DNA of 64,000 bases, from the NCBI RefSeq assembly GCF_900167455.1, contig NZ_FUWJ01000001.1, positions 1,612,001 through 1,676,000 of the forward strand. Direction: 5' to 3'. The translations under genes and the position numbers were made by a program. Source of the stretch: Enhydrobacter aerosaccus. GTDB lineage: Bacteria; Pseudomonadota; Alphaproteobacteria; Reyranellales; Reyranellaceae. How positions within the stretch are numbered: the stretch's first letter is position 1; every line of letters starts with the position of its first letter. Shown in pieces: positions 55,129 through 58,561 of this stretch. The notes beneath the pieces are model-generated. The model had not been told where the DNA came from. It saw only the letters and a program-made list of their open reading frames with translations, and ran no database searches.

Positions 55129-57037
55129 TCACGGCTTTCCGGCCAGCAATTGCTGCGCCAGGGCTTCGCAGGCGAGGTCCTTGGCGGTGCCGATGACCGG
55201 ATGGGGGATCGGCCGCTCCACAGCGATCGTGGGCGCCCGAATCTTGCCAGTGATCGAAACCGGTCCATGAAGATCGAGGAGATCGAACTTTTTCGGGTCC
55301 GCCAATATCTTGACATTGACCACTTGAGACGACAGCCCGGCCTGGCCTTCGACGCGCAGCACCGATTTCTGGGTATCCAGCAGCGTCCGGTCGAACGTCA
55401 CCGTGCCGTTGCGGAAGTCGAGGCGTCCGAGGGCACAGCGGATCGGAATGCGGTGATCGCCGGTCACATAAAGCACCAGCGCATCGACGATCTGCAGGCC
55501 TGCGAGACTCACCATCAGGTCGCTGATGGCGCCGCCCTCCATGACCACCTCGACACTGCCGTTCGCGGCTCCCATGACCTGAGCCAGCGAGCGACCGGCA
55601 CCGACCAACTGCACCCGCCCCCGGATCTGGCCCTGCGTCGTCCCGAAGAAGCGCGATCCGCGAAAAAAGGCGCCGAAATCCAGGTTCGTCAGCGCCAGCC
55701 CTGCGCGCACCGTCGGAACATCGCGTCGGGCATCAATTCCCAATTCACCACCGATCTGGCCACCGGCAACCGCCATGGCCAAGGGGTTCACGGTCGCGAC
55801 ACCATTGTCGACGAGAACCCGGAATCTGAGCGCCGTTACCGGCAAATAGGATGGCGCCACCACCCGCTTGGCATCGAGCGTCACGTCCATGTTCATGGCC
55901 CGCAGACGCTCGACATGCAGCGGAACGTTGGGAAAGAGTTCCCCTCGTGCTTCCAGTTGCTGCTCCGTCGCGGCCTGCTGCGGCGAGATATTGCCGCGAT
56001 TGCCAGGAGGCGCGCCGACCAGAGGAGCGAGATCGGCGAAGACCAGTTTTTGCGACACGAGGTTTGCCGTGAGGTGCGACGGCTGTTGGCTGTCGTCGAT
56101 CAGAATATCTCCTGCGAGATCACTGTCGCCCGCATGCCAGGTCGAATCGGTCACCTTCCATTTGCCAGGCTCGCGATCGAGGCGACCAGTGATGCGATAA
56201 GGCGGCGTCGGAGGACCGGGAATGCCGAGCAACGGGTAGATATCGGCGAGGTTCGGGCCCGACAGGGCAAGCTGCACATTGGCCCCCCTTCCACTGGATG
56301 GGGTCCTGCAAGGTGCCCTTGATAGCGAGCTTTGTGGCGCCATAATCGATGTCGAGATCGACAGGATATGGCTTGTCGGTCTGGCGCAGCATTACCGCCG
56401 AGCCGCCGACGAAGTTGACGGCCAGTGGCTGGTTCTCGAGCTTGCCCTTCAGCTGGAGCCGTGCCTCAGGCTGGCCACCGGCCTGACCGGTCGCCGTCGA
56501 GATCGTCCCCTCGAGATCGATCTTGCGCTTGAGGTCGCTGTAGGTCACCTGCCCATCGGTGATGTCGAGTTCGGCAATCAGCGGAGTCTGGTGACGCTCC
56601 TTGGGCGCGGCTGCTTTGGCCACACCGGCCACGACCGGACTCTGCTCCGGGCTCCAGTTGGCCTGGTCCTGCTGATTGCGCTCCATATGCAGCTCGGGCT
56701 TGAGCAAGGTCAGCCTCGGCAACACGAAGTCGCCGCGCAGCAGCGGCCACAGGCGTATGTCGAAATCCACCGCCTGGGCTTTGAGCATGTGGTCAGCCTT
56801 GCCCCAGTCGGCGTTCGCTACCTGGACGTCCGCAAGGTGGACGTGCGAGGTCCAGCCCCAGTCGATGCCGATCTTCCCGATCGTGGTCTTGCGGCCGGAC
56901 AGGGCGGATGCACGGCTCTCGAACTGACGATGCACGAAGTCTGAGGTAACGAACAGATACGCCCCTGCCGCTGATAGCCCAATCAGCGCAGCCAGGATGC
57001 CGACCGACCAGCTCACGACCTTGGCAGTGCGTGTCAT
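55129..57037 (-). pseudogene. AsmA-family protein gene, disrupted by a one-base frameshift
   Basis: Two overlapping frames together give one AsmA-family protein of about 635 residues. The first part (57037 down to about 56283) has an N-terminal membrane helix (W-S-V-G-I-L-A-A-L-I-G), H-V-H-L-A-D-V-Q-V-A-N and the end I-K-G-T-L-Q-D-P-I-Q-W-K-G. The second frame continues A-N-V-Q-L-A-L-S-G-P-N-L-A-D-I-Y-P-L-L-G-I and runs to 55129 with the AsmA C-terminal N-G-S-V-E-V and L-D-F-R-N-G-T. The break lies in a six-base G run (C run at 56283-56288): one G fewer restores the frame. Real mutation, slippage site or sequencing error cannot be told apart here. Confidence 0.85.
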
Positions 57038-57127: not shown

Positions 57128-57592
57128 ATGACAGTCGAAAGTGTCCGCGCCTTTCTGGATGAGCATGCCCCCGACATCAAGATCATCGAACTGCCTGACA
57201 GCACCGCCACCGTCGAGATGGCTGCCAAGGGTCATGGCGTTCTGCCCGCCCAGATCGCCAAGACCTTATCACTCAGGATCAAGGATCGAGTCCTCCTGGT
57301 CGTCGCCTCGGGCACGGCCCGGCTCAACAACCGCAAGATCAAGGATCTGCTCGGCGGCAAGCCGCGCATGCTTGCGGCCGAGGAAGTCGCCGAGCTGACC
57401 GGCCATCCTGTCGGCGGGGTTTGTCCATTCGGCCTCGCCACGCCGCTTCCGGTCTATTGCGACCTGTCCCTGAAAGCGTTCGACGAAATCCTGCCGGCCG
57501 CCGGGTCGACGCATTCGGCGTTGCGCATCACCCCCGATCGGCTGGCGGCTCTGGTCAAGGCCGAATGGGTCGATGTCTGCGATCAGCCGTGA
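57128..57592 (+). CDS. YbaK/EbsC-type aminoacyl-tRNA deacylase
   Basis: 154 residues. The catalytic/tRNA-binding lysine region is Q-I-A-K-T-L-S-L-R near 45, and the loop G-G-V-C-P-F-G-L is the family's signature. These proteins hydrolyse mischarged tRNA, for instance Cys-tRNA-Pro. The stop is 3 bases from the convergent aldo/keto reductase. Confidence 0.9.
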   Translation: MTVESVRAFLDEHAPDIKIIELPDSTATVEMAAKGHGVLPAQIAKTLSLRIKDRVLLVVASGTARLNNRKIKDLLGGKPRMLAAEEVAELTGHPVGGVCPFGLATPLPVYCDLSLKAFDEILPAAGSTHSALRITPDRLAALVKAEWVDVCDQP

Positions 57593-57595
57593 CGC

Positions 57596-58561
57596 CTACT
57601 TCTTCTGTTCCTCGGATCGGTCGGTTGCCGGCGGTGGCGCACGGGAAAGATCGGCGATCTCGGCGCGCAACCCGGGAGTCATCGCGATCTCGACCGCGGC
57701 GAGCGAATCCTTCAGCTGGTCGAGATTGCGGGCGCCGATGATGGGGGCGGTAACCGCAGGATGCGCTCCGACCCAGGCGATGGCGGTGCTGACCGGATGC
57801 AGCCCTCTCTCCCGACAGAAGGCAACGTACCGCTCCGCCACCTCGATCATCCAGGCGTCGCCGTAGCGCGCCTCATACATCTTGTTGGTCCTGAGCCGCC
57901 CCGAGGCCTGGCCGAAATACTTGCCAGACAGCAGTCCGGCCGCCGCCGGACTGTAGGGCATCACTCCCAATCCGTTGGCTTCCGCCATGGGCAGAATCTC
58001 CACCTCGGCCTGGCGCTTGACGAGGTTATACATCGGCTGGATGACCTGCAGCCGTGCCCAGCCCTGGCGCTCCTCGATATCGATGGCTCGCTGGATCTGC
58101 CACGCCGCCCAATTGCTGATGGCCGGATAGATCACCTTCCCGGCGCGCACGAGATCCTCCAGCGCCCGGATCGATTCCTCGATCGGCGTGAGTTGATCCC
58201 ACTGATGCAGGAACAGCACATCGACACGGTCCGTCTGCAGACGCCGAAGACTGGCTTCCACCGCCCGCACGATATGGCGCCGGGACAACCCACGGGCATT
58301 TGCGTCGGGACCGATCGGGTTGAAGCATTTGGTCGTCAGCACGAGCTCGTCGCGATGCCCTTTCGCCAACCGGCCCAGAATTTCTTCCGACTTGCCGCCG
58401 GCATAGGCATCGGCGCAGTCGAAGAAATTGATGCCGGCCTCCCGGCAGGCCTTGTACATCGCCGTCGACATCGCCTCGTCTGCATCACCCCCGAACGACA
58501 TGGTACCGAAGCAAAGCTCTGAAACGGAAATGCCGGTACGGCCAAGCAATCGGGTCTTCAT
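57596..58561 (-). CDS. Aldo/keto reductase
   Basis: 321 residues, TIM barrel. Catalytic tetrad positions visible: Asp and Tyr in F-F-D-C-A-D-A-Y-A-G-G-K-S-E, Lys in L-T-T-K-C-F-N, His in F-L-H-Q-W-D. C-terminal NADPH-binding I-I-G-A-R-N-L-D-Q-L. The group (COG0667) reduces aldehydes and ketones with NADPH. Substrate unknown. Confidence 0.92.
   Translation of the reverse strand: MKTRLLGRTGISVSELCFGTMSFGGDADEAMSTAMYKACREAGINFFDCADAYAGGKSEEILGRLAKGHRDELVLTTKCFNPIGPDANARGLSRRHIVRAVEASLRRLQTDRVDVLFLHQWDQLTPIEESIRALEDLVRAGKVIYPAISNWAAWQIQRAIDIEERQGWARLQVIQPMYNLVKRQAEVEILPMAEANGLGVMPYSPAAAGLLSGKYFGQASGRLRTNKMYEARYGDAWMIEVAERYVAFCRERGLHPVSTAIAWVGAHPAVTAPIIGARNLDQLKDSLAAVEIAMTPGLRAEIADLSRAPPPATDRSEEQKK

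Follow-up and report, generated by a model that had tools for sequence, protein, structure and literature searches.

Enhydrobacter aerosaccus (the host below) carries an AsmA-like gene whose reading frame changes at a run of six G, and the locus raises the question of whether this change reflects a recent mutation, a reversible switch of an envelope protein, a translational device or an error in the sequence. We analysed the locus within a stretch of 64,000 nucleotides, which we call the window. Its relevant features are as follows.

56120..57037, minus strand: first open reading frame (ORF), 305 aa; the N-terminal 250 residues of an AsmA-like protein, then 55 out-of-frame residues to the stop
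55129..56343, minus strand: second ORF, 404 aa; the C-terminal 385 residues (from 56286), after out-of-frame codons
56283..56288, minus strand: G6 run and frame-change point, in the overlap of the two ORFs, which lie in different frames
57128..57592, plus strand: divergent neighbour, an aminoacyl-tRNA editing domain protein (PF04073), unbroken
57596..58561, minus strand: neighbour, an aldo/keto reductase (PF00248), unbroken

One AsmA-like gene in two frames

The plus strand reads CCCCCC at 56283-56288, so that the run is G6 on the coding (minus) strand. Both ORFs match the Pfam family AsmA (PF05170) above its curated cut-off of 29.8 bits, the first at profile positions 1-213 (54 bits, 1.7e-14) and the second at positions 363-604 (69.2 bits, 4.4e-19). 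When joined, the two halves align with full-length orthologues over residues 1-635, the first frame covering residues 1-250 and the second frame residues 251-635, and both halves are open throughout except for the single break. A first-pass annotation had described an AsmA-family gene split at this run, and the Pfam halves together with the orthologue alignment confirm that description; its further proposal, that removal of one base would give a single full-length AsmA-like protein, was right both in the identity of the protein and in the one-base nature of the break.

In an alignment of 24 relatives, conserved residues flank the G run directly: W249 on one side, and G251 and A252, at 90% or more, on the other. 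Because residues on both sides are invariant or nearly so, the frame change is pinned to the few bases around the run. Most simply, the extra base would be a G; an extra C in the CC that follows the run would also fit, but would replace the nearly invariant Ala by another residue. The gene, 1909 bases long, contains only two runs of six or more of any base, and the frame change falls on one of these, a placement that is unlikely to have arisen by chance. G/C runs of six or more are not as such unusual: the whole 64-kb window has 13 of them, compared with about 41 predicted from dinucleotide steps. Such runs are rarer than this prediction for both bases on the plus strand (positions 1-64000), with 12 C runs against 26.7 and one G run against 14.7.

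Proteins of the AsmA family have an N-terminal membrane helix followed by a beta-groove. The structure predicted for an intact orthologue, at middling confidence (pLDDT 63, pTM 0.52), has a helix at residues 2-30 and then mostly strands. A search of the PDB with this model gave weak matches, none below E 0.001, with TamB second at 5.3e-3. Measured against the NCBIfam equivalog models, the intact orthologue scores 36.8 of the 412 bits required for AsmA (NF008091), 25.3 of 519 for YhdP and 21.3 of 825 for TamB. As these scores are far under the cut-offs, the protein is AsmA-like and not E. coli AsmA, YhdP or TamB proper. It nevertheless has in common with the AsmA-like proteins of E. coli, given as AsmA, YhdP, TamB and YdbH (PMC8593681), the PF05170 match, a predicted N-terminal membrane helix and a beta-rich predicted fold.

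The junction in related genomes

The host genome comprises 6.77 Mb in 30 contigs, and its relatives include Reyranella species. Our reading of the junction took in 58 loci, many of them duplicated between two collections; 56 cross the junction (all but L030 and L033), and these reduce to 32 distinct sequences. Every one of the 32 is in a single frame at the junction, and the G6 run is found in none. The nearest relative, the one-contig genome G015 (72.5% protein identity), reads TGGAAGGGGGCG; its run has five G and keeps the frame. In the other 31 sequences G or C runs never exceed four over the 42 bases read, and 15 of them read exactly TGGACCGGCGCC at the position of the run. A wider search identified one match in each of 32 of 145 other genomes, covering at least 600 of the 635 residues at an identity of 54% or higher. 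No internal stop is present in 31 of these 32 full-length matches; the remaining one, in G072, has a single TAG somewhere within it. The frame is thus disrupted in the host where its homologues are intact, the pattern by which a pseudogene formed by a recent frameshift is recognized.

Given that none of the 32 related junctions has G6 and that all are in frame, the extra base is private to the host among the genomes examined. The scope of this statement is set by the collection of relatives, which may leave out records very near the host genome: among the 65 genus genomes searched (the host included) there was no same-species record, and the closest match to other DNA has 73% identity. In one relative, G013, a second AsmA-like copy (L032 4001-5862; G013:C33:22677-24459) is broken into three frames, and the other copy in that genome (G013:C10) is unbroken.

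Its restriction to the host among the relatives examined makes the extra G most likely either a knock-out mutation of recent date or a sequencing error, and not a switch. The first-pass annotation had offered two readings of the run, a sequence error and a slippage switch. The former is still viable, as discussed below; the latter finds no support, with no G6 in 32 junctions and with 33 other G/C runs of six or more lying in unflagged host genes.

Phase variation, in which replication slippage at the G run would turn the envelope protein on and off, is in our judgement very unlikely. In its favour are the position of the frame change on a G run, the envelope nature of the product and the rejoining of the frames that an altered run length would bring; in having a mononucleotide G tract at the frame change of an envelope gene, the locus resembles phase-variable poly-G genes such as Neisseria pilC1 (PMC5231331). 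A length of six bases does not by itself exclude such a mechanism, because the minimum total repeat length for a candidate locus in the same study is six. However, the host tract, in a sequence known from one genome, is short, and it is not conserved: among the 32 related junctions G6 is absent and five G occur in only one. Elsewhere in the host, G/C runs of at least six leave their genes unbroken, and in Escherichia intragenic homopolymers, which are mostly of six bases, are reported to vary little in length (PMC8928963). Our literature search for AsmA with a phase-variable homopolymer found nothing beyond a review of DNA methylation. Less likely again is the specific proposition that the extra G represents a real, reversible slippage state in which the AsmA-like putative lipid-transfer protein is off in part of the population; if true, it would provide the host bacterium with a simple envelope switch.

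Recoding and initiation in the second frame

The G run also bears on translation, through a potential start codon immediately downstream.

56275..56277, minus strand: second-frame GTG; a purine-rich stretch, of which the G run is part, lies 6 bases upstream of it (window 56275-56290)

Programmed recoding, whether by a ribosomal +1 shift or by transcription slippage, or internal initiation at GTG 56277 might yield a full-length or a split protein; we consider this the least likely of all the readings. The G run supplies a Shine-Dalgarno-like match just before the GTG, and among second-frame starts only this one has a 5-of-6 match to AGGAGG; before the second-ORF ATG at 56343 there is no such sequence (best 2 of 6). 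From its sequence context, initiation at this GTG is conceivable, although the match speaks only weakly for internal initiation and we regard it as a chance occurrence; the resulting C-terminal piece would be without the membrane helix. Recoding, for its part, is at odds with the single frame of the relatives at the junction: neither a conserved G tract nor a conserved frameshift site was found among the 32 junction sequences, and both were rejected as explanations, the relatives being in one frame and without G6. In a survey of transcription slippage that was limited to A and T runs, many genomes gave evidence of selection at runs of nine A or T (PMC1088944), a length that also argues against slippage-based recoding here, as far as a survey of A/T runs can be applied. 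Coupled translation of two separate genes was likewise rejected. The stop of the first ORF (56120) is 223 bases beyond the second-ORF ATG and is overlapped by no second-frame start, and the 5-of-6 Shine-Dalgarno-like match occurs at GTG 56277 only.

Coding constraint on both sides of the break

The age of the break was approached through a codon alignment of 32 sequences (the host, G015 and 30 others), in which parsimony served to place changes at conserved sites on the host and G015 branches. For the C half, changes at codon positions 1/2/3 number 16/13/52 along the host branch and 33/16/37 along the G015 branch; for the N half, the counts are 16/16/26 (host) and 10/17/18 (G015). Taking as conserved those residues that are shared by at least 95% of the 30 other sequences, retention in the C half is 166 of 175 for the host and 155 of 175 for G015; in the N half both keep 63 of 69. 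These patterns show that coding constraint was maintained along the host branch; the signal is clear for the C half and weaker for the N half, where the third-position excess is modest (26 of 58 changes). Since the C half, which would go untranslated after the break, is without decay, the break is either very recent or not real, and a gene that is in truth intact would be expected to retain constraint to the same degree.

Accuracy of the host assembly

This last possibility, that the sixth G was miscalled and that the cells carry an intact single-frame gene, ranks second among the explanations and is a serious contender, nearly as likely as mutation. Homopolymer length is a common indel error, the gene appears constrained on both sides of the break, and a base-call or assembly error would give an identical picture. 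In addition, the GeneTack survey expects sequencing errors, and not real indels, to underlie lone, homology-confirmed frame breaks (PMC3711429), and the host break belongs to this class. As in the singleton frameshifted genes of that survey, two frames jointly match one Pfam/BLAST family and the break is unshared by homologues; as far as the description of the class in the survey goes, we see no substantive difference from it, and the ambiguity between error and mutation is common to the host gene and the class.

Against an error stands the condition of the rest of the assembly. We compared two 400-kb host stretches with G015 (2.0 Mb with ORFs of at least 100 aa, and 1.2 Mb with ORFs of at least 120 aa). 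The first stretch (set 1) gave 159 gene pairs with 52,526 aligned residues, of which 22 pairs were flagged for a stop or frame change, and the second (set 2) gave 260 pairs with 99,817 aligned residues and 51 flagged; the break count covers these pairs apart from partial matches, which number 5 in the first set and 14 in the second. Judged by windowed codon-position patterns, a few direct looks and ten protein alignments, the AsmA-like gene alone among the 419 pairs has a clear mid-gene break with coding signal on both sides. Most flags have no third-position excess up to the stop or frame change, as happens when a longest-ORF reference enters non-coding or antisense DNA. Individual flags could be dismissed on other grounds. 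At about 13.4-14.6 kb of the window the reference ORF extends upstream into other DNA (DNA alignment), and at 68-70 kb of the set-1 stretch the codon-position profile indicates two overlapping genes. Ten flags were unclear; in four of these (275138, 275732, 786666 and 549578) protein alignment placed the differences upstream of a conserved start, and the other six were judged by eye to be antisense or non-coding readings.

Homopolymers elsewhere in the host are similarly undisturbed, with 33 G/C runs of six or more (15 + 18) inside unflagged genes that have a G015 orthologue. Clean matches in the first 400 kb, among them that of the AsmA C half, contain a further 92 runs of five. Frameshifts and broken G/C runs are therefore uncommon, which speaks against an error-rich assembly, an explanation that we reject within the limits of the 419-pair comparison, and leaves room for a single error. 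The reverse comparison, starting from G015 genes, flagged 18 of 174, among which DNA alignment identified at least two real breaks in G015 and one false flag. A G015 frame break lies in an enoyl-CoA-hydratase-like gene (named by eye; L179, G015:C1 about 4,539,500-4,540,300), and another near the C-terminal end of a different gene (L182, G015:C1 about 4,609,200).

Probable recent loss of function and the place of the gene in the genus

We rank first, as the probable explanation, a recent loss-of-function insertion of one base in this AsmA-like envelope gene, a plain reading that was absent from those listed in the first-pass annotation. Polymerase slippage in a short G tract, from five G to six, may have added the base. 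If the base is real in cells, translation would stop 55 residues past the break, after the N-terminal helix, the first strands and 55 foreign residues. The product would be a membrane-anchored fragment lacking 385 of the 635 residues of the protein, its C-terminal 60%, which belong to the predicted beta-rich body; given this loss, the allele is most likely null.

Loss of this gene would have precedent within the genus. By hand count in draft genomes, a full-length AsmA-like copy is present in 18 of the 29 other genus members that are at least 97% complete and missing in 11 (G002, G008, G017, G023, G025, G028-G031, G062, and G036, which has a fragment only). On this distribution the gene appears to be patchy and dispensable. 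The host retains three other AsmA-family genes and one TamB gene, all without internal stops. Rescue by a close paralogue was rejected: the other matches in the host's own genome are distant (23-28% identity), and the gene has no close paralogue there. The unbroken paralogues parallel the redundancy of AsmA-like proteins reported for E. coli (PMC8593681) and P. aeruginosa (PMC10900882).

A lone frameshift in an AsmA-like gene is an ordinary event. Should the extra base prove not to be real, the break would amount to an annotation note for the host genome; if it is real, the locus would be a further example of the loss of an individual AsmA-like gene while its paralogues persist.
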